Part shown: positions 40,301 through 62,416 of the stretch, piece by piece
Position numbering within the stretch: the first letter of the stretch is position 1
Layout: each line of letters starts with the position of its first letter
Assembly (NCBI GenBank): GCA_028753945.1
Contig: JAPNXP010000007.1
Location: 4,960,001 to 5,024,000, forward strand
Direction of reading: 5' to 3'
From: Hexactinellida sp. DTS-2022
Taxonomy: Eukaryota > Porifera > Hexactinellida
DNA: 64,000 bases
Notes under the pieces: generated by a model
Databases searched by the model: none
What the model was told of the DNA's origin: nothing
What the model saw: the letters and a program-made list of their open reading frames with translations, nothing else
Made by a program: the position numbers and the translations under genes

Positions 40301-40981
40301 TCGCATAAAGTCGTCACGCTGACTCTCTCGGACGAAAAGGATCCGATTGTGGATATCGTGCTGCCGCACCAGAGGAACAGCGGGCTCCTCAACGAGCTGA
40401 CGTCATCGAGAGAGTCGCTCAGGTCGCGAGAAGGATTCGTGCCTCAACCGCAGAACAACTCTAATCCCGAGCGGAAATACGCGTACCATCCGTACCACCC
40501 CGTATCCACGCCCCCGATGCACTACACCACCAATGTCCTGATCCCGGCCTACCCGCCCAACCTGTACCCAGAGTGGGGCGCGCAGTACGTGCCCGCTCAC
40601 GTCATGCCTCCGCACGAAAAGATAATCACAGCCCCCGAGCCGCCCCCCTACGAGATGGTGTCACAGAACTACATCATTAAGCAGGATCCCAATCTGATAT
40701 GGGTGCACCTAAAGAGCACACAGAGAGGGTTCGGATTCAGTATTAGCGGCGGCGTGGACAACATGTCCGGGCCACAGCCGATACTAATCAAGTCTATGAC
40801 AGAAGACGGCGCTGCGAAACTTGACGGGAATTTCGCGGTCGGCGACGAGATTTGTGCTGTGAATGGTTATTCGTTGATAAACGTTACGCACCAGCAAGCA
40901 GTGAGCATTTTGAAACAGTGCCAAGAAAAATTGAAGCCAGACCAGGAAGTACAGTTATTGATAAGAAAGCGACAAATATAA
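34316..40981 (+). CDS. Multi-PDZ scaffold protein (MPDZ/PATJ-like, 11 PDZ domains)
   Basis: Exon 1 (34316-34852) and exon 2 (35300-40981) join in phase 0 to 2072 residues. Exon 1 contains a segment resembling an L27 domain (VKSVLTKIHQLFIDH, then after about 45 inserted residues FDKAIAVLKSDAFTCIYNAN). Exon 2, 5.68 kb without an intron, encodes 11 PDZ domains at about full-protein residues 187-272, 308-387, 412-502, 599-695, 1002-1086, 1296-1383, 1405-1493, 1533-1606, 1638-1718, 1773-1857 and 1978-2070. Typical carboxylate loops include GLSI, GIMI, GISI, GLTL and GFGFSI; PDZ8 is degenerate. A coiled coil lies at about 770-833 and a PPPY (WW-binding) motif precedes the last PDZ. MPDZ/PATJ proteins organise apical junction and polarity complexes. 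The last PDZ with GFGFSISGG resembles MAGI proteins, so the mix is unusual and exact orthology is open. Confidence 0.88.
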
Positions 40982-43043: not shown

Positions 43044-46000
43044 TCACAAATTAAAATTATTGTCCAAATCTTGAGAATCAGTTTCTCTCTCGTCTCCGTT
43101 AGGAATATCTTGTCCAGCTGTGTTCTCTTGTTCGTGCAAGTTTTCTGAGGTATTTTGGTGCCCCATAATCGGTAGCGTATTTGCTTTTAAACTCTTCAAA
43201 TGATTATCGGTCTGTTCTGAATGATCTGATTTCTGTTCGGTTTGGAAAGGCGGATCCTCGGAGAGTAGAGGACTCCTTATGTCGGATACCTTACTGACAG
43301 CCCCGCTGATTGACGAGTAGGTAGAGCTGAGGAGCTTGGTGCGAGTCTGAAGAGCACTCGACTGGTACCGCCACACCATTAGCCGGGAAGCAGTCTCGTT
43401 CTGTTCCACGGAGCAGACCACCTCCACATCTCCTGACAAGTGTACTGTGGGGAGGGGCTCTATCGAGCGTATCTTTCCCTTGCTGCAGTGTTGGTACGCG
43501 ATGAGAGGACTCTCCTCGACTACAAGGTCACTCACTTGCGGAAGATCCTATGTATAATGTAGTGAGTAGCATGCAGTGATGTATACAGGATTATATCACA
43601 TAATTTTAGTTTATTAATTTTGATGGGATTTGTCACCAAATTTTCCTGATTGTAAGGTATAATCTCCTTCATAGTAGAGCCTCGTGAATACGAACAACAG
43701 CTAATACGAACACTATTTCAAATTCCTCAAAGATTTTCATTATAAATGATATTGGCTAATACGAATTCCGGGAAGGCGAACGTATTTTGACGGTACGAAG
43801 TTCTACTGTACTTCATACTACATGGATTAATAACGTAATTAAGTAAGTACCTCAGATTGTGGAGAGTTGTTAATTGGGGCGCTCACAGCAGTTCCCAGTA
43901 TGGACTGTCGGCTGAACTTCATTCTCTCCGGCGTGTGGCTAGTCTGCTCCACCGCTGGTATCAGGGAGCGTATCTTTAGCACGTCCATAAGGAGCAGGGC
44001 ACCCGACTTGGTACCCACCCACAGCAGGTTCCCCTGGGGGGCTATGGCAGTCAGCTCGCTCACCTCCTTCCTGTTTATGTCTGGGAGAATTCTACGAATA
44101 TGAGGCATGTAATAAGCGTCCCAAAGCTGGAGTTTCAAATGTTTTCAGTTATTGTATGGATTTTACTTTAGTTATTCAGGTTGAACTAACTACTATTTAC
44201 AATAGTCAACCACTGTTAATTCTAACTCGCAAAGGAAAATAAAATTGGTCGAATTAGCGAATTTTCGATTTAACGAGTATTCAAATTAACGGGTGTTGAT
44301 TGCATGTCAAAAATTCAGTACTATTTGTTGGAATCAGCGTTTCAGGAAAAAAAATGGTGAAACATGATTTTTGTGTTTAGGCAACATTTCTGTATGCAAA
44401 GTTAGTAACTAATAAGTGTTGTGTGTAACGTAACTGTAAATCGAATGTGAGTAACAAGCGGCCTGTCTCCCAGCTCCAAATCCAAATGTAAGAGCATCTC
44501 CTCGCTATTGTCCAGATCCATGGTCCACTAATGACCATATCTATTACTGTTTCTTTTGCTACGAATTTATTCCTGCTTCTTGTTGGGAAATAAGGTGCTT
44601 GTATCTCTCTCTCGCAGTGGTGCACTATGCCTTTGAATTTCGCCTGTTCCTTGAGTGTGAGAGGGTTTATGACTAACATTTTGTGTCCGCAGGCTGCCCA
44701 TATCAAGCCACACGGAGTCAGTACGATGCCTCTACACGGGTTGTTCTCTTGCAGCATTACTGCTCTCTCTCCTATTTAATTAACGGCATTCATAACGACC
44801 TATCAATCTATTGTATGTGCAGTAGAACTCGTATAACGTAGTAAACGTACCTAGGTTAGTACGTACTGCTATTTTTAACTAAGTTTATAAAGCAGTATAT
44901 ATTTCTATGTAGTACTCGGTTAGTACGTATATTCGGATAATACGTACTTATTTCCCATTCCTGAGGGTGTGCGTTATAACCGAGTTCTACTGTACCTATA
45001 ATGTAGACTCGTTAATACGAACAATGATAAGGCGGTATATCGATTAAGGAATCAATATTTAATTCCCTTACCCTTAGATAAACGTATGCAAGTGAATCCG
45101 GTTAATACGAATTTCTGTATAATACGGACAGATTTCGACTGTCCCCTGGTGTTCGTATTAACAAGTCTCTACTGTAATTTCGATGTTATTATTGACAATT
45201 GAATATCATTTTGTATTTATACCTGCTAATGGATTCTTAACAACAAGTCCGTTCCTCATCCCCATGAATACCATTATATTCCCGTTAGCTAGCCCCACTA
45301 GCACTCTGTACTTGAGAACTTCTAATCCCTCTTGGTTGGGATTTAGCGCTTGGACATTCTCCCATTTATCGTCAATTGGCATCAGTGAGAGAACAGCATC
45401 CTATTACAATTATACGAATTGTTTTATAGGAATTTATTACATACGTATATTAGCTAACACCTTTCTAAAGTAAATTAATGTATTTAGTGTTCTGGGGGAA
45501 AATATCAATTTTGTTATAAGCGGGTATTTCTTTATATCCGACTTCGTTATAAAGGGAGTTCTGTACTTGTATTTTGCAAATAAAAAACTAATAAGTACTA
45601 TTAGAAGTTGTTGGCCGGTATATAAGTAAGCCCTTGGGCCTTGTTTATAATACAGTAGACAAATAGAACGTATTTACCTGCAACTGGCCGGAATAGTAGT
45701 TATTCATATCAGGCAGATCGTATACGTATAGCGCGCCTTTATTCGTGTCTTCTATTCCTATCCACAGCTGATTGGTAGACTGCACTATCCGCATAACAGT
45801 CACGTTACCGATTGCCTGCAGCTGATCCGAGTTGTTTCTCCTCTTGTCTGGCTTCGTCAGCGCTCGTATTATACATCTGTGTTGTAAATATTTGTTGTGA
45901 AAATTTGTTTTTGAATAAAATTTTGTTTTAATTAAGTAATTCTTGTATTGTTATAGAATTTGTACAAATCAAAATCAAAATGCTTTTGTTCCATCCTAGC

Positions 46001-49000
46001 TATCAAATGTTGTATAACGATGGTACAGTAGACTTTGTTAATACGTACACAAATGAGGCGAAATACAAGATTTTATTCCCCTAGCTTATACAAATGCATG
46101 TAAGTGACTCACGTTATAGTAATACGAATTTCCGGATAATACGACAAATTTCGACAAATTAACAGTGTCTACTGTACTTATAATGCTACTATTGCCCCCT
46201 CGACTCACTTCCCATTCCTTGGGTTGATGTGTCCCACCAGGAGCCCCCTGGTCCCGGAGGCCCAATACAGCTCCTGTTTGTCTGTACACACAATGCACTG
46301 CACGTTTATATCTGAGCTCAGGGGCGACCAGCCGATCTCTCCGGCGCAGAGAGTTAGCTTCGAAGCTATCATCGGCAGATCCAGTATTATTCTGTTCTTT
46401 AGGTTCAGGCAATTCTCTGCAGAATAATATAGATAAGCTATGGTATAAATTATACGCCAAATGTTAAGACCAGTGTAAAACGTAACTCGTTAATGAGTGC
46501 GTACAAATTTAAGTTCAAAGTTCGTATTAAATACAATTATTGCGTCTATGTGTTTATATTAATAACTCTTGATAACAACAGAAATTTTTAAGGTCCTTTG
46601 GTGTACGTACTCAAAAATATAGAATTACTTAAATTTATACATCTTTTTATTTTCTTGCACTGACAAGGTATTTTACATAAGTAATTCACCTTAGCGAAGT
46701 GGGTTTTTATACTATAAAGGTGTTGACCGCTATATTATAAACCAATCACTATTCCTTACCCAATAGTGGCTGCATACACAGCCGATGACAGGCCGATACT
46801 TCTGCTTGTTTCAGTTCGAATATATTAACCGCAGACCCGTAGCCTAGCTGCACTGATCTCCCGTCAGATAGATTGATAGCGCTAGTCTTCCTCCTGGTGT
46901 GCATATCATACTTGCCCTGCTCATTGACTGTGTATAGGAGGTGAGCCTCTATGTTGAGAAACAGCCGTGAGTGCAGCGCTAGGCGCATAACCTCCTGAAG
47001 CGAGTACACGCCCTCGAACGGCCTGCAGCCTGTTGAGATCTCGTACAGGAGAAATCCAAATTGCAGGAGAGGGAGCTATGGGAATATTATAATTATAATA
47101 CAGTCAGGTTCTTTATAATTAACATTCAAAGGACCAAAAATTGTGTTCATAATAGAGAGACTTCATAATAAGCGAACTGAACTTAATACGATACAAACCC
47201 TAGATGTAAGTTGTTAATTAACTGAATATGGTACCAACTTTATAAATTTCTAATATGAAATATTTATTATTGTTCTTTACAATAATAGGTAAACAAATTA
47301 AATAAAGATTCAAAATGAATCTAGAAGTTAGCTTTCAACGGGTATTATAGGCAAACAATTCAGAACTATGCAAAATAGTACGAAGGGATGTATATAACAT
47401 CGCTTTCTACCATTTCCCAATGGTAGAAAGAGTGAAGAGTAGGGCCGCATAGCGGCCGTTAACTTGAGATGTGTAGCACCGATCCGTGACCGAAGGGCTC
47501 GTAAGGAATTAAGTTTAAGTTATTTGACTCACTGAAGGCTCATTTGCTAGCAGGAGATCTTGCTCTTCTCTAGTATTCACCAGTGTCTAATAAATAACAT
47601 CAAACTACAGTAGAACCTCGTTAGTACGAACACGGTTAATATGAAATCAAGTTAATACGAAGACGAGCACTATTTCAGCCCCCTTCAAAGCATTTTCAAT
47701 ACAAATAACCCCGGTTAATACGAAATCCAGATAAGGCGAACACATTTTGAATTTGATGTCCCTAATGTACGTACTAACGAGGTTCTACTGTATATTTAAT
47801 ATCATTGGGTGTTAAACCTATCCTGTTTACCTTAGATTTAGAAAAGTGTGAGATCCCGGCATCAGATAGCCTTATCACCATAGGCTCTGTGTAGTGCACC
47901 ATTACTGTATCAGAGGTGAGCTGGGTGTGGCATATGTTCCTCAGCTCCAGGAAATATAGACCTCCCACCACCTACAGGAAATATGTATATACAATTGGGA
48001 TCTGAAAATGCAGACTCTCTTATTAGCAAGTTCATTTATTATGTATTGTTATGTAAATTGTTATTGAAATTTATTGCATCTCTTGTTAGTAAAACTCAGT
48101 TAATTATAAATTTTCGTTTTACAACAGTGCGTGCAAATTCAGTGCCCTTGCTACTTAATGACAAGTGTTAATACGAACACTATAGTATTTCAGTCCCCTT
48201 CAAAAGCATTTTTAATACAAATGACACCGGTTAAATTACAAATTCCGGGCAAGGCGAGATAATTTTTACGGTCCCCTATTGTTCTAATATCCGGTATCTA
48301 CTATTTATATGAATGTATAACGACCTGTATGGCCACAGCATGGGAGGCTATCGTGTCCAGTCCCTTGTTGTTAGTGGTCAGGAGAGTTCTTAGAGACCCA
48401 TACGAGGATCTGCTCAGCAGGGCTGTAGGCGGATGGAAGCTTACTCCAATGAACTTCACCATCTGGTAAGTAACAGTTAATGATAATACGTAGTACAGTC
48501 AGCTTATGTTGTTATAATAAATACAATATAAACTTACACTTTCGTCGTTTATCTTTAGAATATTATACGCTTCTTGCATCAGTTGTTTGTAAGGAGCTTC
48601 TAATAATATCTGAAATACAACAAATGTTAATAACGCTGTGTAGCCAAGTGTCCGTATCCCTGCTAACTTGCCTAATGGTAATTTTGAGAAACAAAATTGA
48701 CCTTTTAAGTGCCTGAACTTACATACTAAAAACTGTGCTTTAATTATTTTACAGTAGAACCTCGTTAGTATGAACACAGTTATACGAAATTCCGGTTATT
48801 TTAATACTAAGCACTACTTCAGTCCCATTCAAAGCCTTTTCAATACAAATGATATTTGTTGAAAAATACGAATTCTGGATAAAGCGGTTCTACTGATTGA
48901 GTCTCACCTGTTGCTGCAGTCCTCCTGGAGACCTCTCTATCTCCCGTCTCCTCTCTTCAGAGCAGTAGCATCTGTGGAAGTAACAGCTGTTCGTATCTCC

Positions 49001-52000
49001 CGAGATAAACACCTCCTCCTCGAGGTCTACTGCCCCCTCGTAGAATATATAGTTGCTGCCTAAGTTGTATACGTGTATTATATACAGTGAACTCCCGCTA
49101 TAACGATGTTGGATATAACGAAATATAAATTTTCCCCCAGAGCTCTAAATGTATTCATTATCATCCGCTTATAACGAAGGAATTTACAGGTCCCAAGCAC
49201 TTCGTTATAACGAGAGTAAAGTGTGTTGGAAAATAGGTTTATTGTGACTGACACAGTGACACCTAACATCATATTTACTGTCTTATTAATGTCATTCGCT
49301 GTTATTCCTTGAAGTTTCAGAATCCAACTACTGTATTAGTAAACGTGTACTAAATTTGCAATTGTATTAGTTTTATCAAGTGTTGTCCATATCCCCTGTA
49401 TATCAGTTATCACAACACACCACTTACTCTCGGTTAGGTTTAGCTTGGCGGGCATGTCTTTAATGAGCATGTCCGGTATCGCGTCTCTGAGGTCTGCCTG
49501 CGAGTTGGCCGCGGCCGGCGTGAGGCTGTGGGAGAGAATGTCCGAGAGGAGCTTCAGACGGAAGGAGGAGGGGTGAGCCCCCTGGGGGTCCGGAATGAGA
49601 CTGGATAGGTTGTCCACCAATGCGTACACCTCCACCCAGGGCACGCACTTCTCAGAGGTGTAGCAGAGCCCAGGGAAGTGCACTTGGATTGTCTATTTGA
49701 TTATACACACCGTAATCACTCGAATAGTAGTAGCCTAAGCTATTATTTGAGTTGATTAAACTAGTATTTTCTATGTGAGGAAATACGATACATACCAAAA
49801 GTTATCCCACTCATGTGCTGTTGTATGATAACTTATTCCCGGATTTCCTAGTTACCTAGGTAGGTGAGGTATGTTTGACATTTATTTGCTATCATTATTT
49901 TTAAACCCCTTAGGGGACAATTTTTCGAGGGGCTATTATCCGAGTAAATACTGTATTCTGTTTAATTTCGCAACTTAATTGAGGTGTAAAGTTTGGACAT
50001 ATTGCTACATGACTATGTATCGTGGCATATGGTATGCTAGATTCCAGAAACCTATGCTATACTAACTTTACAACTTTACAAACCTGCATTATGACGTCAT
50101 GCGTAACTCTTAACAACCTCGCCTCCACGTTGTCGTTGTCTGCGTAGAGAGACAGCTGTATGCCCTGAGAGTCTGTGAGAATACCAGACTCCAACGATGT
50201 GTCATCACAGCCGCAAACCTGTAATGGCGTAGTGTATAGTTACAGTACTTCTGTATGTTTAATTAATTAATTAAGCAGATGACTGGGGTTCAAGGTCATT
50301 TTCAATTGGAATTCAACACACACTTTAACGGGTCTGACTGAATGGTGGAAAATGGTGGAAAATGGTGGAAAACATCCGAGAGTGGTGGAAAATGGTGGAA
50401 AATGGTGGAAAACTACTTGACTGAATGGTGGAAAATGGTGGAAAATGGTGGAAAATGGTGGAATTTCTGAATTTTCGTCGAAATGACTGAATGGTGGAAA
50501 GTGGTGGAATTTCTAAAAATCGACTGAAAGGTGGAAAATGGTGGAAAACGACTGAATGGTGGAAAATGGTGGAAAACGACTGAATGGTGGATAATGGTGG
50601 AAAATGACTGAATGGTGGAAAATGGTGGAAAACGACTGAATGGTGGAAAATGGTGGAAAATGACTGAATGGTGGAAAATGGTGGAATTTCTAAAAATCGA
50701 CTGAAAGGTGGAAAATGGTGGAAAATGGTGGAAAACGACTGAATGGTGGAAAATGGTGGAAAACGACTGAATGGTGGATAATGGTGGAAAATGACTGAAT
50801 GGTGGAAAATGGTGGAAAATGACTGAATGGTGGAAAATGGTGGAATTTCTAAAAATCGACTGAAAGGTGGAAAATGGTGGAAAACGACTGAATGGTGGAA
50901 AATGGTGGAAAACGACTGAATGGTGGATAATGGTGGAAAATGACTGAATGGTGGGAAATGGTGGAAAACGACTGAATGGTGGATAATGGTGGAAAATGAC
51001 TGAATGGTGGAAAATGACTGAATGGTGGAAAATGGTGGAAAACGACTGAATGGTGGATAATGGTGGAAAATGACTGAATGGTGGAAAATGGTGGAAAATG
51101 ACTGAATGGTGGAAAATGGTGGAAAATGACTGAATGGTGGAAAATGGTGGAAAATGACTGAATGGTGGAAAATGGTGGAAAACGACTGAATGGTGGAAAA
51201 TGGTGGAAAACGACTGAATGGTGGAAAATGGTGGAAAACGGTGGAAAACGCCTGAATGGTGGAAAATGGTGGAAAAACGGGGGCTGACTGAATAGTGGAA
51301 TCGAGTGGAATTTGATTAAATTGTTAAACACTACGTATATGCTATAAGCTACGTGTGTATCATATTACGTTAATTTTCGCCCATGTAAAATTGTTTGCAA
51401 TGATTGAACTAGTGTTGTGCATGAAGTGGGACAATATGATACTATATTAGTATTCTTACTAATCATCTCTATTGAACTGCCCAATGAATACCAACTGGAT
51501 TTGATAAGGAATTGTTGATAAATAATGTAATAAGATGTGTCTAAATAACATGGTAACAAAGCCTAACTAATAAATCCTATTGTGTCACTTCAATCATTGC
51601 AAACAATTTTACATGGGCGAAAATTAACGTAATATGATACACACGTAGCTTATAGCATATACGTAGTGTTTAACAATTTAATCAAATTCCACTCGATTCC
51701 ACTATTCAGTCAAAGATTCCACTAGATTCCACTATTCAGTCAGCCCCCGTTTTTCCACCATTTTCCACCATTCAGGCGTTTTCCACCGTTTTCCACCATT
51801 TTCCACCATTTTCCACCATTCAGTCATTTTCCACCATTTTCCACCATTCAGTCATTTTCCACCATTTTCCACCATTCAGTCATTTTCCACCATTTTCCAC
51901 CATTCAGTCATTTTCCACCATTATCCACCATTCAGTCGTTTTCCACCATTTTCCACCATTCAGTCGTTTTCCACCATTATCCACCATTCAGTCGTTTTCC

Positions 52001-55000
52001 ACCATTTTCCACCATTCAGTCATTTTCCACCATTTTCCACCATTTTCCACCATTCAGTCATTTTCCACCATTTTCCACCATTCAGTCATTTTCCACCATT
52101 TTCCACCATTCAGTCATTTTCCACCATTATCCACCATTCAGTCGTTTTCCACCATTTTCCACCATTCAGTCGTTTTCCACCATTTTCCACCATTTTCCAC
52201 CTTTCAGTCGATTTTTAGAAATTCCACCACTTTCCACCATTCAGTCATTTCGACGAAAATTCAGAAATTCCACCATTTTCCACCATTTTCCACCATTCAG
52301 TCAAGTAGTTTTCCACCATTTTCCACCATTTTCCACCACTCTCGGATGTTTTCCACCATTTTCCACCATTTTCCACCATTCAGTCAGACCCCACTTTGAA
52401 CATACCTGAGTAACCGCGGTTTTTTAATTAATTAAAATCTATTTTTCTTAAAAGAATATTATTTTTTTAGTTTTTAATTAAAGGCATTACTTATATATTT
52501 GTAGACACTTTTCTAAAGTATTTTCTTGTACTGGCAAGGTAATTTTTACATCAAAAAATCAACTTTGCAAGCCAAGGTTTTTATATTGAAAAGCTGTTGG
52601 CTGATATAAGTAATTCCCTAATTAGAACCCCCCTGTTGTTATACCTTTAGATTCCATCCCTGGTCCGAGGTGATCACTAGGCCAGTTGCCCAGTAGTACA
52701 CCTCTGAGGTGAGGTACTCCTTCAGTTCGTATCTAATTCCGTCCGACTTCAACAGAGTGCCATGCGGGAGACACTTTATCACATTGCTCTTGGAAGTATC
52801 CTCCATATTCGTTCTGTTAATGTTAACATTATATATTACAGTAGAACCTCGTTAGTAGGAACACCATGGGAAAGTCGAAATTTGTTTGTATTAACCGGAG
52901 TCACTTGCATGTACAGTAGAACCTCATTAGTACGAACACCAAGGGACCGCCAAACTGTGTTCGCATTATCCGGGATTCGTATTAATTTACCGGTATCTTT
53001 GTATTTAAAAAGGCTTTGAAGGGTACTGAAATTGTGTTCGTATTTACCGGCTAGGGTAATTAAACCTTCACTCCTTAACCAATATTTCGCCTTATGAGTT
53101 CGTATTAACGAGTCTACTGTACTCAGTTTGATTAGATTAAATTAATGTCTTCTCTCCCGTTCTCAGAACTCGGTGTAATGGGTAGAAGGTTGATACAGTT
53201 AAAACGCATGTCTTTCCTTTACTCGAAAACCTTCAATGCTAGTGATGGAGTTAGAAAATATTTGGATCAGAATTTGATAGAGTTTGCCTCTACGTTCCCT
53301 TCAGTTTCTATCTACCTAAGGCAAGATGAGGGAGACCCTCGTATTGAAGCAGAGTATCTCAGTGGTACAAGGAAGACTGTTCTTTTAAAGAAATTCACAC
53401 GGGAAGAAGTCAGGAGTGAAGTTTGGAAACTGCGCTGCCAATCTGGGATTAATGTTGGACAGATTGTTCGCTATTGGCACACAACACGCCCCTCTATTCA
53501 AGGGAACTGGCATCCATATTTGTTCCCATTTCCAGACAATTCTCAGTATTTAATTCCCAAGCAAGATAAGAAAAATGAGAAATAGTTGATATTTAAATTG
53601 CTTATTAATTTAGTTATTCGAATTATTAAAATACAACTTGCCTTAATTCTCTGGGTAGGGAACTTTGTGTAGATTTGTGTCCATAGTACTCTGGTTGGAA
53701 ATTAAGAGTCTCAAATTGTTCCAGCTTATTTAGTTCAATACCGCCAGGCAGTGAGATTGGCAGCAAGTTTGCTAGTAACTACAAACATATTTAATTATAA
53801 TTTTAATAGTAGAGAAATGTAACATTCATGTTTTTACCCTTAGACGGTTTTAATTAATTAATTTCTACTATAAATATAAGTTTTATAATACTAAGTATAA
53901 TACGTTAATTAAACTGCTTCACGTAATACAAAAATATGTTCTTATTTACATCAGACACGGTATACTATATATTTAAATAAAAAATATGTACAATAGTCGA
54001 ATTATTGTGAAAGCCAACATATTTGACAGTTTTAATTAAAAAATTCCCGTCACGCAATATAACATTTCACCATCAAAATACTGTATAGCTTAATTTATCC
54101 AGTACCCCTATGTTGAATTCGTACGTATAATACTTTATACGAGGGAGAATTCATTAAGTGTCGACTTCGCTTAATTGGGACATTTCGGGCCCTAACATTT
54201 TGTCCCAATTAACCGAAAATTCTGTTTTATATACATTACATGCGCCATATAGTATTTCTTTATCATTTGAATCGTAAATACGCTTGCAAATAACTATCAT
54301 TCACCATTTCCGCACTGAAAACTAATAAGAACAGTTGTACAATTGATCTGGGATATATTTACTGAATACTGTGCTATAAATAGAGTCCCTACCCTCATGA
54401 GTAGAACATTCCAGAACCCTAGGGGAATGAACTTCATCTTGTATATCCTCCTGCACCTGTTCCCTGCTAGGAACGTGTGTGCGCCCGCTCTGCCCTCCTC
54501 CGCGCTCTTAACACAGTCGGGCAGCTCCGTCCCCAGACCAGCTGGGACTATGACGTAGCTGTCCGAGAGACGAGTGCATATGTTGTTAGCTGTCAGGAAT
54601 TTCTATACACATAATGACAGTGAAGAATGTACCGTTATAGCGAAGTCGGATACAGTGGATGCGGTTATAAGAACATCGTCGGGAACTGCATTTAATGTTC
54701 TTATATCCGGTATGCATTATATAGGCCAACCGTTTTCCAGTTGAATGTTCTTATAAGTTATAACTGGTGTTAATATAACCGGCATCTACTGTATAACGTA
54801 ATAACAGCTTATAACGAAATGGAGATTTCCCCCAGACACTAAATGCATTAGTTATTATCCGCTTATAACAATTATCCAGATATAACGAAGGAATTTACAG
54901 GTCCCAAGCGCTTTGTTATTACGACAGTTAACTGTATTCAATTGCTTTGATATTTCGTTGGGTTTATAAGGCACTAAAACTTACAAGAAATTCTTCTAGC

Positions 55001-58000
55001 ACGTATGGGACTTCTCCATCTTGTTCAAATGAATCCTCTTTGTCCTCCGAAAGTGTTCTGGTACTTGTCCGATTGTTAGCGAGTTCTATATAATTGTATA
55101 AGTTTATAAAATGTCTGCTAAAAGACAGAATCACTTGCTAGAGCTATCTCTTTCTTTGTATTACTAATAAAGTTATACAGTATATATATTTATGAACTAA
55201 AGTTTCATCCAAGTGTGTGCCTGAAAACGCATAAATTTTAAAGAAAACTTTTCTAAAAGCGAAAAAATCTATGGAAATTATTCCAATAGATTAAGTACAA
55301 AATTAGTAATTTAGGTGCGTGTGAGAGCTCAAACTAAATCTAGGCTCGCATAAAATGCCTGAATTAAGCCCTATATGAACGTACGTATGTTTGTCGGTGC
55401 GAATATCATAGCCAGGTTATCTAGCGGTAGAATGCCGGCCGGGGAGTTGTGGAAGCAGCTGCCTATGCCCATCTGGGAGTGCAGGAGGATGTCCGATAGC
55501 ACATCTCCCAACAGCTGCAGGTTGAAGGAGACGTAGCACTGACTCTCTCCTGTCACGTGCTTGAATAGGATTCCTTCCTAGGAGCAGTGTTATCGGGGAA
55601 TATTAGAAGGGATTATACAGTGGATGCTGGTTATAAGCACATCGTCGGGAACTGCACTTGATGTGCTTATAACCGACATAAATTATACAGGGTATATGGC
55701 AACCGTTTTCCAACATAGTGTGCTTATATTCGATATGTTCTTATAACCGGTGTGCTTATATCTACTGTAGTAGTGTTTGCCTAATAGCAATTGCTCTAAT
55801 AGCTATATTATTCAATTATTGCTGTAATAGCAAGTTATTTTCAGTCCCCAAGCGGGCATTTGATGTTAATTCTGTTCCTCTAATATCAAGCAAATTCGTG
55901 CAAAATGCGACTTGCTATTACGACAATATATCTACATGGCCTAAATACTATAAATACTTTATTAACTTTATTTTGATTAATCGTTTATTTCAAATTGCCT
56001 TAGTTTGCAAATTTTATTCTTATAAATGCAGTCAGATTATTGTGCAAAAATAATACAAGAATATGTATTCATTTAATTCCTTATATTTTAAAGTTTTAAC
56101 TTAAGTACTTCACTATACAAAATTTGTCCCCTGGCTTGTATTGCCAATAAGCAACGTAACGCTTCCAAATGCGGGAGGGGGGATAATACAGTCAGGTCAA
56201 TACTGTCACATAGGAAAGTTTTTCCTGGAATTTCGCGCTATATAACGTTTTAACGGCCCTCTAACTGATCAATAATGCCCAAATACATTAGTTATACGTA
56301 ATATTAAAGGCTAAGCATAACTAGATGAGTATGGAGCACAATCTCCTCTGCAGCCCCGACGAGATCGAGACGCACGCGCCTATGGAGCGGACCGCCTGTG
56401 GCTTCAGTAACCGCAACGCTGTGTTCCGAGTGGAGACGCGGCGCTATTCGCAGCAGTACGCACAGATCTACAACGCGCGGATGAAGGGAATACGGGAGAG
56501 ACTGGAGCAAACGGCCGAGAGGAAGTGGGGCCTGAAGCCACTCATCGAGATGGGAAACATAATAGTGGGAGAGAGGTAATGGTGCTATTGTGTTCTCATG
56601 TATCTATTGTAGGACAGGGGGAATATTAACTGCTTGATAACGTGTAATAAGATATGGTATGTTAGGTGGATAATTAGATAAGAAGGACTGTTGTACGAGA
56701 TTTCTACTTCCATGAGATTCTTACTACAGTGGAACCCCGCTTAATTAACTGTCATCCCGGAATCGGCCACTTTTAAAAGTCCCTTTTGACTTCATCTAGT
56801 AAATGTTAACATTAATTTATTTGACAATTACGGGCATTTTTATCGGTCCAGAGGATGACCGTAATTCCGGGGTTTTACTGTACTTTGAAATTATACCTGA
56901 TTACAATACAGTTTTAATTGAATGTTGTAATGAAATAAATCCCATTTATTTTGTTGGTGTCAGTAAGTTGATTAGTTATATTAACACTTAACTCCATAGG
57001 TGCTGCATTATCGGTAACATCTTTAAAGACATGCGCCTTAAGCCGAGCGTGCTACGAGAGCTCTCAGAAGACCACCACTTGATCCCCCTGCCCCCCCGTC
57101 GCAAGTACACCGAAGAAGAGGACTACCTAATCCTAGAGGACCACTCCCTTCGTATCACGCTCCTTACGGACCAGACTGATGTGGACACGCTCGTAACAGG
57201 CGTGCCAGTTGTCGTGATTGGTTGTCAAGAGAACCGAGGTCGGTTTAGAGTGGAGGAGCTAGCCTACGCGTGCATCCCTGGTCCAGAGCTGACAGTGCCG
57301 CTGGGAGACGACAAGTACGTGCTCCTGGTGTCCGGACTTAATGTGGGCGGGGCTAACACGGATATGCTCAGTCTGGAGCTGTTGGTGGATCAGCTGACCG
57401 GATGCGGGGGCGGGGTTATCGATAGCGAGATTATGTCTAAGGTGTGTCATGTTATCATAGCTGGCAACCTGATCGCCGATAGGTATGTGAGGAGATCGAG
57501 GGACAGGAGTCAGGCCGCGTCCACACTCGAGAGTGTGAGCTCAGCTGACACATATCTCTCCAGGATAGTGTCTTCTATTCAGGTGAGTCAGGGATAGTAA
57601 AGCGATGATTTTGTAAATAGAATCAAAATCAATTGATTTATTGTTGATTTTTACCACAGTGGATGCCGGTTATAAGAACATCGTCGGGAACTGCATATAA
57701 TGTTTTATAACAGGTGTTCTTATATGCGGAATCTACTGTATTTGAAAAGGGCGAAACTTATTTAAAATCGTAATTATTTCGACTTAATATTATAAACTAT
57801 ATTCACTACCCAAATAGCAATTGAATAGCTTTTATAAAAGTTGTGAGTTATGTTAATTCAAATCAATGATTTATATTTCTCAAATATCCCATTAATTATC
57901 AATCCCTGCAGGTGACACTAATGCCAGGCATCAACGAGCCGGGTAACATAACACTGCCCCAGCAGCCTCTCTACGAACCTATGTTCCCAAAGTCCACCAG

Positions 58001-61000
58001 CTACTCTACGCTAAACATGGTCACAAACCCGAACCTCATGGCTATCGATAACAGAACTCTATTGGGTAGTAATAGTAATACATAGGTTATATGTTATAAT
58101 ACTGTTTAATTAATAGTCAGTTATAATGGGCTAGTCAGCCTCGAAGGCATGAAATTTCGCGAGTTTCTAAACTATGACAACTCATATAATGAAGTCAAAC
58201 TCAAACTACAGTCAGGCCTGCTTATTGTGAACATTCAAGGGACCGAAATTGTGTTATTAATAGAGACTTCATACTAAGTGTGCTCAACATAATACAAATC
58301 CTATGTAAGTTGTTAAATTGGGATTTGATAATAAAAAGTTTCCATATTAAGCAGACGAAAATTGTTCACAAAAACTTAAGCAAACCTGACTGTATTCATT
58401 AAATAATTTTTAATTAATTTCTCTCAGGGACTTCCGGTCAGAACATCGATAATATCTACAAGTTCTGTACTACAGAGGACCGAATGGCTATTTTAGAGAG
58501 TACCCTCAAATGGGGACACATGGCTCCAACTGCCCCAGATACACTGAGCTGCTACCCTTACGACCATTCACACCTCGAACCATTCATAATACGCGAAATG
58601 CCGAGTATATATTTCGCAGGTAACCAGCCAGAATTCAGATATAAGTACTTAGAAACGGGGAGAGAGAATACACTCATGGTGTTGGTGCCTGACTTTAGTG
58701 TTGTGAAAACTTGCGTGTTAGTTAATCTGAAGAACTTAGAGTGTAGCAGTATTAGTTTTGCTACAGAGCTGAGCTCTATTGGGAACAATGGTGGCAATCC
58801 GGTCCCTATGGATGTGTAGCGATTAGCTTTCATTTGTAATGCACACTCGCTTTGCTTTCTCTTATAACTAGTGTATTGATTAATAATGTAGCTTGAAGAG
58901 TAATTAGTATTTATAAACACCTAAAAAAATTAAAAATAAATTCGGTTACCAAATATTGAATATACAGTAGAACCTCGTTATTCGAACTTCAGAGGGTCGT
59001 CAAAATGCGTTCGCCTTATATTATTCGGAATTCGTATTATTAAACCAATGTTATTTGTATTGTTGTATTGAAAAGGCTTGTAGGGCACTGAAATAGTGAA
59101 CGTATTAACCTGAAATTGGTATTAACTGTGTTCGTATTAACGAGGTTCTACTGCAAACTATTTAGAAATAACTTTTAGTAAATTTAGAAATAACTTTTAG
59201 TTTTGCTTAATACGTACCTTCAAAATGTTTTTAATACTTGTAATTCATTTTATTACGAATTTCGGTAGACAAACAAATTTCGGCGCTCCCCTGTTGTTCG
59301 TATTAAAGAGAATCGACTGTAGTTTTAAATTTTAAAACAATCAATTAAGAAATAGTACATACTTGCCTAATATTTTTTAATTCTTTATATATGCATGTTA
59401 TTATTGTTAATAGCATTAATGGCTTCAGAAAGTTGTGAACCAAATTTACCATCTCTCTGGTCACAAATGGAGGATCTGGTAAATAACACGTTTGACAATA
59501 TTATATATTTGGTTAACGAAAGGAGAGAGGTTGTATTGTCTCAATTCAAACAACTAAGAGACGAAAAGAACAAATTATCTAATTCTATTGAGCAGCTTAG
59601 ATCCACTATATCACTTGTGCGAGAAAATCTAAGCGAGAATAGCGTTATTGATTTGCAAGAGAAAACAACTGTAGATTTTAACGTTAGACTAACTGAGTTG
59701 AAATCGGAAATGAGCATTAACCATGTGTTTGTGTGCGACCAGAAAGAGCTCAATAGAACACTAACTTCATTGGGAAGTTTCGAAATATCGCCCTTGCCTT
59801 ATGTGAATAAAACCGTTCAAAAATTATCTTTCGGAACTGGGCTAGAAATTAACTTACAGCAACCTATGAGATTGTCAGTTGACGAGTCATTAGATTTAAT
59901 CGCAATCACTGATCCGATAAATAACCGAGTTTGTTTGTTTTCGTTAAATGGTCAATTTATCAACTCGTTTGGGACAGAATATTTCTCACATCCGTTTGCT
60001 GTTAAAATAATTAGCCACAACGAAATTATTACCTCAGATTCTGTAAAGCAATGCTTGTCATTAATTAATTTTGATCGAAATAAGAAAGGAAGATTCAAAG
60101 TTAAATTAACACTGCCCGAGACAAGTTCTATCACTGCTTTGGATTTTGATAGTAAAACTAATCTAATTTATGCAACAGAGTCCCGTACACACTCTCTGTT
60201 AATATTAAACAAAGATTTTAAAATAGTTTCAGAGCTAAAGAACAAGTTTATTTACCCACAGAATATATTTATTAACAATGAAGAGGTATATATTCAAGAT
60301 TTTAATAACCCATCAATACATATATTATCGAAGACATCACTTAATCTTCTCAGATCTATTATTAGCCGTGGAATTAGCCTAAGCACTGAAATCCCATTAA
60401 GTTTCTATGTAGACAATCAAGGTTATATATTAATAGGAGATATTGCAGGCGTGATTCAAGTGTATTCTCCGTCCGGACAACTTTTACACTCATTCTCTAA
60501 GAAAGGAATTGGTTTAGGGGAAATTAGCTCACCGAATGGCATATGTGTACTGGCTAATTATGACGTCATAGTTATATCAAACAACCCAAACTATCCAATC
60601 CAGGTATTCTGATCGAATATTAACATTTGGATATTTTAATATGTATACGTATTCCAGTAATGTATTTTAATATATAATCTTAAGTCTTTTGTTAAATTAT
60701 TTGTACTAAACACTCTCGGATTGTAATTATTTCTTAAAAATATTCCCTTTTTTTAGTAAATTATTACATAAATAATATAGAGTTTAATTTAGTGCGCAAA
60801 AATATTAATATATACGAACCCTAGTATTTCAATTTCAATTTTCAACTTGGCAACAACAAACATTAGACATATTATATTAAGTATATGTATTTACCATTAA
60901 ATCCGTCGAAAGCTATTCTCTAAGTGAATTATAATGCTTAACAACTTGTTTACCTATTTTATCACAAACTTTTTAAATTATATATTTGTAAATGCGATAT

Positions 61001-62416
61001 TTAGGATCAGTTTTGAATTTCATTACTATACTTATTAAAACACCAACAATGAATATTCATATTATAAATTAGAAATATGAATTCGAAATCAGCATATCCA
61101 TTTGCTATTATACTCGTTGAGAGTTATTCTCAACGTTCACTTCGAATTATCATATATTTGCTACCTATTTTTATAAAAACAACAATAATTATAGAAAATA
61201 TTTGTAATCTTATAGTACAGTATACCTAAAAATGATATTATAGCAATTACCTCGTGGAAGAAAGTATACGTACGTACTAACCGAGTTTACCCTGCATAGA
61301 AATGCATACTACTTTATAAACTAGGTTACAATAAATCAGTACGTCTAAACCAGTGTATTAATTAATACAGCCATTTGTAAATACGCTCCTAATCCTGGTC
61401 TGATCAAATTTTAATACGCCTAAATCACAAATTAATGTTACGGTATAGGAGAGGATTCCAAATTTTCGCGTCCTAAATTCAAATTTGCCAAAAATCATGC
61501 TCCAAAAGGAACGTCTCGCGCTCTTGGATAATTCCTTGGTACTAACCCAGGTACGTTATATCCGAGTTATACTGTATTATTATAACAATTACCTCATGGA
61601 AGAATGTGAGCATGTCGCTGACTGCCTCCTTTCCGTAGTCGGGCCCCACCTCCCTCTTGAGGAGCCCCGCCCCCCTCAACGAGTGGAATATGTCGTCACA
61701 GCTCACCAGCGGCTGTGTGAAGAACCGCTCGAAGGGCAGCTGGCCAAAACTCTTCTTTTTTTGCCGATTTCTTGCGTTTTCCTATAATTATAGTAATGTA
61801 TGCAACTCACATTTGTACCTTGTAGAGGATTTGTTATATTGGATCCTAGCCCAAATCCAGTCCATAATCCAAATGGACTTTTATCAGTTAAAAAACCTTA
61901 GTTCATAATTATCAATGCTTTTATTTATGATATAATTCAACTCTGCATATTGTATTTTGAATAAAATTATGGTCTATTGTTTGTATCATACAAAATTGCA
62001 GCAGAACCTCGTTAATACGAACACGGCTAATACGAATTTATGGTTAACACGTGCATTATTTCAGTCCCATTCAAAGCCTTTGCAATATACATGAAACCCC
62101 AGTTAATACGAATTTTTCGGATAAGGAGTACACATTTTGACGGTCCCTTTGTGTACGTATTAACGAAGTTTACTGTATTTTGGATTCCAAAATCCAGAAT
62201 TCATATTCCAAAATCCATAATTAATACGGAACGTCTGCTTGTATAGAAGGATCGATTTGCAATTAATGTATTGGCAATTTAGCATTACCCTAACTTCTCT
62301 GATTCTCCTCTCGAACTCGATATACAGCAGAGGGACGCTCTTGGCGTACGCTGCTTGTTCCACTCGGATGAATATGTCCTGCGTGAGACGGGCGTGTAGC
62401 TTGTTTATGTTCTCAC
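43044..62416 (-). CDS. LRRK-family Roco protein, 3' half: COR, kinase-like and WD40-like regions
   Basis: Twenty-one exons with matching phases: 62416-62289, 61781-61593, 55577-55385, 55085-54985, 54602-54393, 53778-53642, 52813-52645, 50218-50084, 49692-49428, 49059-48908, 48609-48538, 48462-48325, 47971-47831, 47586-47533, 47075-46760, 46416-46209, 45876-45678, 45400-45223, 44771-44410, 44126-43851, 43547-43044. They encode about 1,370 residues; Roc and LRR parts would lie beyond the window. COR: VPLLYIEFERRIRE, VSDMLTFFHE, FIPLGFWNVLLMR. Kinase-like: MVKFIGVSFHPP, YGSLRTLL, RLSDAGIS, LQFGFLLYEISTGCRPFEG. WD40-like: VQCIVCTDKQELYWASG, NQLWIGIEDTNKGALYVYD, GLIWAACGHKMLVINP, NLLWVGTKSGALLLMD. 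The kinase part lacks a Gly-rich loop, VAVK lysine and HRD motif, so it is a probable pseudokinase. Intron 53641-52814 needs a GC donor (AG|GCAAGT). LRRK1 versus LRRK2 is not resolved. Confidence 0.88.
43671..43811. mobile_element. Pogo-like MITE in last LRRK intron
   Basis: TAGTAGAGCCTCGTGAATACG at the left, GAAGTTCTACTGTA at the right. Confidence 0.65.
44819..45176. mobile_element. Two adjacent pogo-like MITEs in a LRRK intron
   Basis: First copy about 44819-44994 (CAGTAGAACTCGTATAACG to ACCGAGTTCTACTGTA), second about 45001-45176 (ATGTAGACTCGTTAATACG to AACAAGTCTCTACTGTA). They are separated by only a few bases. Confidence 0.65.
45440..45660. mobile_element. Nested repeat fragments in a LRRK intron
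   Basis: A GGCCAACACC-family frame (TATTAGCTAACACCTTTCTAAAG at 45450, AGTTGTTGGCCGGTATATAAG at 45606) has a truncated GTTATAACGAAG-family piece (about 45478-45565, TCTGGGGGAAAATATC to GGGAGTTCTGTACT) inside it. Confidence 0.5.
46025..46176. mobile_element. Pogo-like MITE in a LRRK intron
   Basis: ACAGTAGACTTTGTTAATACG at the left, CAGTGTCTACTGTA at the right; 33 bp from the next exon. Confidence 0.65.
46480..46742. repeat. Degraded MITE remnants in a LRRK intron
   Basis: GTAACTCGTTAATGAGTGCGTAC near 46478 and GGTCCTTTGGTGTACGTACT near 46590 resemble a decayed pogo-like copy. After it, 46640-46742 has the TTTTCTTGCACTGACAAGG and AAAGGTGTTGACCGCTATA words of the GGCCAACACC family. Confidence 0.4.
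47100..47500. repeat. CAGTCAGG element followed by GAGCCCTTCGG-type repeat (copy 3)
   Basis: ACAGTCAGGTTCTTTATAA at 47099 starts an element resembling 41183-41337; its right end is lost. From about 47255 to 47500 comes copy 3 of the dispersed repeat seen at 2150-2420 and 11598-11910, ending GACCGAAGGGCTCG. Both lie in one LRRK intron. Confidence 0.55.
47607..47792. mobile_element. Pogo-like MITE in a LRRK intron
   Basis: ACAGTAGAACCTCGTTAGTACG at the left, TAACGAGGTTCTACTGTA at the right; well preserved internal words (CCCCTTCAAAGC, GGTTAATACG). Confidence 0.8.
48170..48306. mobile_element. Degraded pogo-like MITE in a LRRK intron
   Basis: TTAATACGAACACTATAGTATTTCAG with GTCCCCTTCAAAAGC inside, and CGGTCCCCTATTGTTC and TATCTACTAT at the right. 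Left terminus decayed. Confidence 0.5.
48751..48894. mobile_element. Pogo-like MITE in a LRRK intron
   Basis: ACAGTAGAACCTCGTTAGTATG at the left, AAAGCGGTTCTACTG at the right; only about 14 bp from an exon edge (48908). Confidence 0.7.
49084..49222. mobile_element. GTTATAACGAAG-family MITE in a LRRK intron
   Basis: ACAGTGAACTCCCGCTATAACG at the left and CGTTATAACGAGAGTAAAG at the right; TTTTCCCCCAGAGC inside. It lies about 25 bp from the exon edge at 49059. Confidence 0.75.
50330..52391. mobile_element. 2.06-kb palindromic foldback element with TGGAAAATGG-repeat arms
   Basis: The left arm (50330-51290) is a tandem array of GGTGGAAAATGGTGGAAAA interspersed with CGACTGAATGG. The right arm (51715-52391) is its reverse complement, shorter by some 250 bp. 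The termini CGGGTCTGACTGAATGG and CCATTCAGTCAGACCCC match. Inside the arrays a second pair of arms of unique sequence, 51290-51407 and 51590-51715 (for example AAATTAACGTAATATGATAC), flanks a loop of about 180 bp. The repeats give long artificial ORFs. No transposase. It sits in the LRRK intron between exons 50218 and 52645, on neither exon's edge. Confidence 0.9.
52485..52615. mobile_element. GGCCAACACC-family repeat in a LRRK intron
   Basis: ATTACTTATATATTTGTAGAC with ACTTTTCTAAAG at the left, AAAAGCTGTTGGCTGATATAAG at the right; CAACTTTGCAAGCC near the centre. About 30 bp from the exon edge at 52645. Confidence 0.5.
52838..53120. mobile_element. Truncated plus full pogo-like MITE upstream of mL43 gene
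   Basis: A 5' part (52838-52911, ACAGTAGAACCTCGTTAGTAGG) is followed by a full copy (52914-53120, ACAGTAGAACCTCATTAGTACG to AACGAGTCTACTGTA). The mL43 start codon is at 53145, only 24 bp after the MITE end, so the MITE forms the whole upstream region. Confidence 0.75.
53145..53585 (+). CDS. MRPL43: Mitochondrial large-subunit ribosomal protein mL43, nested in LRRK intron
   Basis: A 146-residue intronless product. It has the mL43 pattern: GRRLIQLKRMSFLYSK near the N-terminus, VRKYLDQNLIEFASTFPSVS, RIEAEYLSGTR, and the signature HTTRPSIQGNWHPY near residue 120, which in human mL43 reads HTDNPSIQGQWHPF. The protein is part of the mitochondrial ribosome large subunit. It is on the strand opposite to LRRK, within the 52814-53641 intron. 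Its stop at 53585 is 57 bp from a LRRK exon. The upstream region is made of MITE sequence. A thioredoxin-like fold is known for the family. Start: first ATG of the frame; TTCTCAG at 53159 could alternatively be a splice acceptor for an upstream exon. Confidence 0.9.
   Translation: MSSLPFSELGVMGRRLIQLKRMSFLYSKTFNASDGVRKYLDQNLIEFASTFPSVSIYLRQDEGDPRIEAEYLSGTRKTVLLKKFTREEVRSEVWKLRCQSGINVGQIVRYWHTTRPSIQGNWHPYLFPFPDNSQYLIPKQDKKNEK
54652..54936. mobile_element. Two abutting MITEs in a LRRK intron
   Basis: First, about 54652-54793, ACAGTGGATGCGGTTATAAG to ACCGGCATCTACTGTA, a family also found at 55617-55769 and 57656-57740. Second, about 54790-54936, a GTTATAACGAAG-family copy with AGATTTCCCCCAGAC and CAGTTAACTGTA at its end. 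They share the TGTA junction. Confidence 0.65.
55200..55375. mobile_element. Diverged relative of the element at 683-869, in a LRRK intron
   Basis: AAGTTTCATCCAAGTGTGTG at the left; TTTAGGTGCGTGTGAGAGCTC and AACTAAATCTAGGCTCGC inside match the copy at 683-869 in order. It lies within 10 bp of the exon edge at 55385. Confidence 0.5.
55617..55925. mobile_element. GGTTATAAGCACATCG MITE next to CTAATAGCAA element, LRRK intron
   Basis: 55617-55769: ACAGTGGATGCTGGTTATAAG to GCTTATATCTACTGTA, with ATCGTCGGGAACTGC inside. 55770-55925: GTGTTTGCCTAATAGCAATTG, then CAGTCCCCAAGCGGGC and ATGCGACTTGCTATTACGAC, as at 18712-18860. Together they resemble two MITEs sharing a TA. Confidence 0.6.
56325..58819 (+). 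CDS. POLD2: DNA polymerase delta subunit 2 (B-subunit), nested in LRRK intron
   Basis: Four exons, 56325-56575, 57000-57582, 57912-58065 and 58428-58819, join in matching phases to 459 residues (human 469). Landmarks in order: TRRYSQQYAQIYNARM; GNIFKDMRLKPSVLREL; LILEDHSLRITL of the OB fold; YVLLVSGLNVGG, the start of the calcineurin-like but inactive phosphoesterase domain; GNLIADRYV; LMPGINEPGNITLPQQPLY; STLNMVTNPN; GTSGQNIDNIYKFC; TAPDTLSCYPY; FAGNQPEFRYK. POLD2 is the scaffold that joins the catalytic subunit to the others in the lagging-strand replicase. The gene lies on the plus strand within a 6-kb LRRK intron (55578-61592). Intron 2 carries a GGTTATAAG MITE and intron 3 a CAGTCAGG element. 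Confidence 0.95.
57656..57740. mobile_element. Short GGTTATAAGAACATCG MITE in POLD2 intron 2
   Basis: ACAGTGGATGCCGGTTATAAG at the left, TATGCGGAATCTACTGTA at the right; 85 bp, shorter than the copies at 54652 and 55617. Confidence 0.75.
58208..58394. mobile_element. CAGTCAGG element in POLD2 intron 3
   Basis: ACAGTCAGGCCTGCTTATTG at the left, AAGCAAACCTGACTGTA at the right; resembles 41183-41337. Confidence 0.75.
58964..59322. mobile_element. Pogo-like MITE plus a truncated one, between POLD2 and NHL gene
   Basis: 58964-59155: ACAGTAGAACCTCGTTATTCG to AACGAGGTTCTACTGCA. About 59208-59322: a 3' part with TACCTTCAAAATGTTTTTAA, CCCCTGTTGTTCGTATTAA and ATCGACTGTAG. Ends 73 bp before the NHL start. 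Confidence 0.7.
59395..60612 (+). CDS. Coiled-coil NHL-repeat protein, nested in LRRK intron
   Basis: An intronless frame of 405 residues. After a short hydrophobic start (MLLLLIALMAS) residues 20-105 form a coiled coil (RREVVLSQFKQLRDEKNKLS, IEQLRSTISLVRENL). From about residue 130 there is a six-bladed NHL-type propeller; clear blades are LDLIAITDPINNRVCLFSLN, NLIYATESRTHSLLILNKDF, EVYIQDFNNPSIHILSKTSL and YILIGDIAGVIQVYSPSGQL. There is no RING or B-box, unlike TRIM2/3/71. A second ATG at 59419 would remove the hydrophobic stretch and gives a start typical of cytosolic coiled-coil NHL proteins; I cannot decide. Homologous proteins are at 1-330 and 63131 onward, so the family is locally amplified. 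Function unknown; binding through the propeller is likely. Confidence 0.85.
   Translation: MLLLLIALMASESCEPNLPSLWSQMEDLVNNTFDNIIYLVNERREVVLSQFKQLRDEKNKLSNSIEQLRSTISLVRENLSENSVIDLQEKTTVDFNVRLTELKSEMSINHVFVCDQKELNRTLTSLGSFEISPLPYVNKTVQKLSFGTGLEINLQQPMRLSVDESLDLIAITDPINNRVCLFSLNGQFINSFGTEYFSHPFAVKIISHNEIITSDSVKQCLSLINFDRNKKGRFKVKLTLPETSSITALDFDSKTNLIYATESRTHSLLILNKDFKIVSELKNKFIYPQNIFINNEEVYIQDFNNPSIHILSKTSLNLLRSIISRGISLSTEIPLSFYVDNQGYILIGDIAGVIQVYSPSGQLLHSFSKKGIGLGEISSPNGICVLANYDVIVISNNPNYPIQVF
60613..61592. other. AT-rich rest of the LRRK intron
   Basis: No gene. A partly palindromic part at about 60960-61170 (TCAACGTTCACTTCGAATTATC, AAAAACAACAATAATTATAG) may be a decayed inverted relative of the dispersed repeat at 2150/11598/47255. 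CTAACCGAGTTTACCCTGCATAG near 61278 resembles a worn MITE terminus. Confidence 0.35.
61999..62177. mobile_element. Pogo-like MITE in the first visible LRRK intron
   Basis: GCAGCAGAACCTCGTTAATACG at the left, TAACGAAGTTTACTGTA at the right; CCCATTCAAAGCCTTTGC inside. Confidence 0.75.

Follow-up and report, generated by a model that had tools for sequence, protein, structure and literature searches.

A LRRK-type ROCO gene with GTPase motifs and a predicted pseudokinase domain in a hexactinellid sponge

We describe a LRRK-type ROCO gene on the minus strand of a 64,000-nucleotide stretch of the genome of Hexactinellida sp. DTS-2022 (GenBank assembly GCA_028753945.1, contig JAPNXP010000007.1, positions 4,960,001 to 5,024,000), hereafter the window. 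The gene probably encodes a functional, GTP-binding LRRK-type protein (the window protein) that is kinase-dead. Judged by its motifs, the window protein is an LRRK that has the GTPase set but lacks the kinase set, and its kinase-like domain is classed as a pseudokinase by motif loss. The genome contains Smad MH2 domains, a hallmark of animals; a Wnt search matched nothing, but neither did its controls, so absence of Wnt does not follow.

Gene structure and domain order

The gene was rebuilt from open stretches and splice sites, and its 29 exons together form a single open frame 1909 codons long. Twenty-one exons are inside the window, where the stop codon is at 43044. The most 5′ exon recovered starts from an acceptor at 67890 (window numbering), past the window in locus L009; the leucine-rich repeat (LRR) and ROC exons are also at L009, and the end of ROC is inside the window. 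The original prediction, made from the letters of the window, had joined exons from 43044 to 62416; its exon ends match ours within the window, but the gene does not start at 62416. All acceptors are AG by construction, and all donors are GT except for a GC at exon 14. The parts of the gene inside the window are as follows.

43044..46416, minus strand: LRRK-type beta-propeller (PF23748) and C-terminal tail, exons 24-29, stop at 43044
46760..49059, minus strand: kinase-like domain, exons 18-23 (49059-48908, 48609-48538, 48462-48325, 47971-47831, 47586-47533, 47075-46760)
47533..47586, minus strand: exon 22 (54 bases), where the activation loop and APE would be expected, with APE deleted
47831..47971, minus strand: exon 21, where HRD and DFG would be expected, reading ICHTQLTSDT and SDAG
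48908..49059, minus strand: exon 18, where the glycine loop and VAxK lysine would be expected, reading VFISGDTNSCYFHRCYCSEERRREIE, without a lysine
49428..52813, minus strand: COR-B, exons 15-17 (52813-52645, 50218-50084, 49692-49428), with the WxxG motif WATGLVI
53642..62416, minus strand: end of ROC, COR-A and start of COR-B, exons 9-14 (62416-62289, 61781-61593, 55577-55381, 55114-54985, 54602-54393, 53778-53642)

The joined protein reads, in order, leucine-rich repeats, ROC, COR, a kinase-like domain and a beta-propeller. Pfam matches above cut-off were Roc (36.7 bits, cut-off 27), LRR_8 (29.3 bits, cut-off 27), PF07714 (PK_Tyr_Ser-Thr; 50.4 bits, cut-off 23.1, E 2.5e-13) and PF23748 (Beta-prop_LRRK2; 51.3 bits, cut-off 26.9), and PF00069 (Pkinase) fell below cut-off at 24.1 of 31.7 bits. 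The best matches to solved structures were human LRRK1 (E 2.2e-15) and LRRK2 (7e-14). The kinase part alone matched LRRK1 (5.5e-9), FAK (6.4e-7) and LRRK2 (1.1e-4), and kinase homology is beyond chance given the PF07714 score and the LRRK1 structure match. A profile of the COR regions of eight proteins from the same genome matched the COR-B part (residues 721-1044) with 37.8 bits, against 5.4 bits for the best of 200 shuffles; the start of COR-A scored just 0.9 bits, and residues 579-720, within COR-A, stayed unaligned.

As in ROCO proteins, the ROC carries nucleotide motifs and is followed directly by COR; as in the LRRK type, a kinase fold comes after COR and an LRRK-type propeller comes next, but active kinase motifs are absent. 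On this basis the window protein is classed as LRRK type by descent and layout and not as a kinase by motif. The original prediction of a Roco protein that keeps COR and WD40-like parts along with a pseudokinase is thus upheld by the domain searches, the COR profile and the motif scores, and the ROC motifs are kept as well.

Kinase and nucleotide-binding motifs

Thirteen catalytic positions were compared in an alignment of the window protein with eight paralogues from the same genome; a ninth, L033, was excluded because its frame ends after APE. The positions were our own choice from general knowledge and were picked as conserved in kinases, so the paralogue scores are partly built in. The window protein keeps three of the 13: the alpha-C Glu and the Asp and Gly of DxG. 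At the other ten, the loop glycines are replaced by T, S and Y, the VAxK Lys by E, the HRD Asp by Q, the DLK Lys and the metal-binding Asn each by T, the alpha-F Asp by P and the alpha-I Arg by Q, and the APE Glu is deleted. The N-lobe alignment is the least sure; exon 18 is without a lysine whatever the alignment.

The original prediction had recognized kinase fold elements on the minus strand, and these were recovered (MVKFIGVSF and YGSLRTLL in exon 48462-48325, LQFGFLLYEISTGCRPFEG in exon 47075-46760). It had also read ICHTQLTSD at the HRD place and DAG at the DFG place, both of which are in exon 47971-47831, and had seen neither a GxGxxG loop or VAVK lysine in the N-lobe nor an APE-like motif closing the activation loop, in agreement with the substitutions given above. 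Its description of the kinase as degenerate stands, but the loss is not total, since three catalytic positions stay. Its statement that active LRRK1 and LRRK2 have all of these motifs holds in that both kinases carry them, but human LRRK1 itself reads FCD at HRD in the structure-match alignment, and at HRD only the lost Asp is therefore telling.

The original prediction had allowed that extra exons might supply the missing motifs, and a motif scan of the three minus-strand frames of 49692-46209 found no such exon. There was no glycine-loop, HRD-type, DLK..N or DFG/DYG-type match in this interval. None of the eight matches in total restores a catalytic motif: a VAxK-like ICIK at 48222 falls in an intron, APE strings at 46347 and 46325 are both inside exon 24, in the wrong frames and downstream of the kinase, and five matches to the loose pattern [GSA]T.[GP] (49044, 47427, 46770, 46227 and 46255) adjoin no APE.

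Some pseudokinases bind nucleotide or transfer a group using other residues. The kinase-like domain of the window protein might likewise be an unusual enzyme, to which its retained alpha-C Glu and DxG Asp and Gly would lend some weight, and the available text of a Dictyostelium kinome survey notes kinases that are active despite a divergent sequence (PMC1420674). We regard this as very unlikely, with the loop glycines, the VAxK Lys, the HRD Asp, the DLK Lys and the metal-binding Asn all replaced.

The ROC domain retains its nucleotide motifs, namely the P-loop GLLHSGKT, the DxxG motif WDFSG and the THxD motif THLD. Elsewhere in the genome (112.4 Mb searched, 18 contigs) there are at least eight further ROCO-like kinase genes, which were sorted by the same motifs with L033, L034 and L035 excluded. 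L021, L022, L023 and L024 keep both the ROC and the kinase sets. L025 keeps the P-loop and the kinase motifs and reads NFAG at DxxG and TFLN at THxD. L029 (L029:970-7086, plus strand) is the reverse of the window protein, with all 13 kinase positions kept and the ROC P-loop lost. L028 and L030 have neither the ROC P-loop nor the HRD Asp. All 13 catalytic positions are likewise kept in L021, L022, L024 and L025, and 12 in L023; L028 keeps eight (HRD Asp to S, Lys to R) and L030 seven (HRD Asp to N, DFG Asp to N). COR-A of L029 and L030 scored 32.1 and 32.0 of 35.3 bits, just below cut-off (above it in the genome search), with Roc unmatched, and L028 has LRR, kinase and propeller matches and no Pfam ROC or COR, its ROCO placement being by alignment only. 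L033 has COR-A and kinase motifs in a frame that lacks ROC, neither ROC nor COR accompanies the propeller of L026 and L027, and L031 (ANK, ROC, COR) and L032 (ROC, COR, caspase) have no kinase within the frame read. L032 (L032:4889-9532, minus strand) is a ROC-COR protein of a single open frame ending in a caspase domain (PF00656, 143.6 bits).

L028 and L030 resemble the window protein in their degenerate kinases with the HRD Asp lost, but they keep more catalytic positions and APE and have lost the ROC P-loop, and the tree gives no support for a close sequence relation. In this ROC-COR tree of 11 proteins from the genome, one of the eight inner branches was supported and seven were unresolved, so a single kinase loss and several losses are indistinguishable; the nearest identity of the window protein was 20%, and its pairing with L030 was flagged as long branches meeting. 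A phmmer search of the joined protein against frames of at least 60 residues in 15 loci matched only the LRR frame of L028, and a genome search with a 765-residue part gave 17 matches, 12 in the window gene and five elsewhere (best E 5e-4). The paralogues are too distant for single-sequence search. Gene structure also differs: L021-L025, L029 and L030 are each one long open frame and L028 two, as against 29 exons in the window gene.

Constraint on the kinase exons and features nested in the introns

There is no stop in the 290 codons of the six kinase exons, and none in the 1909 codons overall. The chance of 290 stop-free codons is 1.4e-9 at the intron stop rate, 8.8e-9 at that of the other two frames and 2.9e-7 from base composition, odds that flatter the case, as the exons had been chosen for openness. 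All stretches of each exon length were therefore taken from 24 introns, with the introns holding nested genes or a tandem array excluded, as a control. Any of the three frames was open in 6.8%, 46%, 9.8%, 9.0% and 66% of places for the lengths of exons 18 to 22, and at 0 of 7280 places for that of exon 23 (316 bases). Exons 19 and 22 are too short to rest on openness alone, because intron stretches of equal length are so often open; the long kinase exons are telling. A codon-use score trained on eight ROCO frames of the same genome gave 0.36 bits per codon for the kinase exons in frame, compared with 0.16 and 0.19 in the other frames and about -0.03 in introns. The COR, propeller and LRR-ROC exons scored 0.42, 0.34 and 0.19, respectively.

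The open frame and coding-type codon use speak for long constraint, and a very recent release from it would be compatible as well. The gene could be decaying, released from constraint, in its kinase part or throughout, so recently that stops are yet to come. Only 13 of 54 conserved kinase columns are indeed kept, with losses among the structural columns too, and the gene is a single copy without a close paralogue. Decay is nevertheless disfavored, because the kinase exons are free of stops and their codon use is like that of the neighboring COR and propeller exons, and such wide divergence free of stops implies a long period of constraint prior to any release. We consider decay unlikely, and the original prediction, which had dismissed it on exon phases, is supported beyond them.

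Several observations weigh against a functional, kinase-dead LRRK. The true 5′ end of the gene was not found, exons 11 and 27 have donors with weak splice scores, exon 14 has the GC donor, and the Pfam scan of the joined protein found no match for COR-A and left COR-B below cut-off (13.2 of 27 bits). A search of bacterial and archaeal genome contigs for orthologues gave five pattern matches and no relatives. Erosion also extends beyond catalysis: of 41 conserved columns outside the catalytic set, 10 are kept in the window protein, compared with 22 in L028 and 24 in L030, and because such structural columns are eroded too, the kinase fold itself may be altered, above all at the end of the C-lobe. 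From alpha-C to DFG, its identity to the six paralogues with 12 or 13 catalytic positions is 18-28%, and those six share 28-38% among themselves. On these column counts and identities, the window kinase-like domain ranks as the most eroded of those compared, fold included.

A further alternative is an error in the gene model, in which either the motifs lie on true exons that the model misses or its 3′ and 5′ parts belong to different genes. Such an error would be consistent with the weak donors, the unaligned part of COR-A, two very short kinase exons, an intron 10 of 6015 bases and plus-strand genes within introns 8, 10 and 14. We think it quite improbable, as no minus frame of the kinase region holds a restoring motif, the LRRK domain order from LRR through ROC, COR and kinase to propeller is kept with none occurring twice, and the modelled introns all leave the frame intact.

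Four plus-strand genes, named by our reading of their domains, are nested in these three introns.

63131 to L009:378, plus strand: NHL-repeat protein, intron 8
59371-60612, plus strand: second NHL-repeat protein, intron 10
56325-58819, plus strand: DNA polymerase delta subunit 2, intron 10, two exons (DNA_pol_D_N 94.4 bits, DNA_pol_E_B 48.3 bits)
53136-53585, plus strand: L51/S25-domain protein, intron 14

The first exon of the DNA polymerase delta subunit 2 gene scored 24.3 bits, just below cut-off, and the L51/S25-domain protein is read from its domain as a putative MRPL43. Tandem arrays (50517-52250) take up most of intron 15. Their repeat unit, AATGGTGGAAAATGACTGAATGGTGGAA-like, is 28 bases long and occurs in both orientations as an inverted pair, whose arms reach 248 bases at 98% complementarity. 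In many introns of the window (e.g. 47620-47800, 48760-48880, 53080-53140 and 59020-59140), inspection by eye showed a short repeat whose ends resemble cagtagaacctcgttaatacgaac, perhaps a miniature transposon. Outside the gene, an intronless plus-strand frame of 1893 codons (35300-40981) has ten PDZ stretches (PF00595, 386 bits).

Possible role and comparison with known ROCO proteins

It is hypothesized that the ROC of the window protein, as its motifs suggest, still binds GTP, and that ROC-COR would relay the nucleotide state to the pseudokinase and propeller, which would act as a binding platform instead of an enzyme. As the original prediction had also proposed, signalling would then run via GTPase or scaffold functions only. 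The most likely mechanism would be dimerization via COR or neighboring parts, either with itself or with intact LRRK paralogues, the activity or placement of which it could then tune. Potential partners are the four paralogues with both motif sets (L021-L024). According to excerpted text of PMC10643122, LRRK2 dimerizes through COR-B, whereas a COR-B loop and, acting in trans, the ANK domain of the dimer partner keep LRRK1 inactive. The window protein possibly has a long COR-B loop, because 92 residues separate the Trp of GFW from the Trp of WxxG, as against 57 in LRRK1. We propose a trans-acting role on LRRK paralogues tentatively, at somewhat less than even probability. Rather unlikely, though worth stating, is the broader idea that LRRK has been split into a cooperating set of dual-activity (L021-L024), GTPase-only (window protein), kinase-only (L029) and neither-activity (L028, L030) members that would work jointly through dimerization, with the GTPase-only member gating the kinases in trans.

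The separability of LRRK GTPase and kinase roles bears on Parkinson's disease biology. If our interpretation is correct, LRRK-type proteins keeping both, one or neither activity would form a natural separation-of-function set, and such a genome would let one ask which LRRK roles require the kinase. Animal LRRKs are described, in the sections available, as four clades beside one amoeban (PMC10643122), and Nematostella as having four LRRK genes (PMC10659525). Among the literature matches listed, judged by titles and the starts of abstracts, there was no report of an animal ROCO pseudokinase, and in the available text of PMC5992104 the word 'pseudokinase' is used once, for ROR1.

The window protein shares the LRR-ROC-COR-kinase-propeller order of human LRRK1 and LRRK2 and differs in that their kinases carry the motifs. 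MFHAS1-type ROCO proteins, as summarized in part of PMC6337361, have LRR-ROC-COR without kinase activity; unlike the window protein, they have neither a kinase fold nor a propeller. Similar by description is Dictyostelium roco10, a ROCO-family kinase that the excerpted survey predicts to be catalytically inert (PMC1420674); it is amoeban, not animal. A predicted-inert ROCO kinase is thus, on that text, already known from Dictyostelium. If our interpretation is correct, the window protein would be an animal counterpart of what the Dictyostelium kinome survey gave only for an amoeba.

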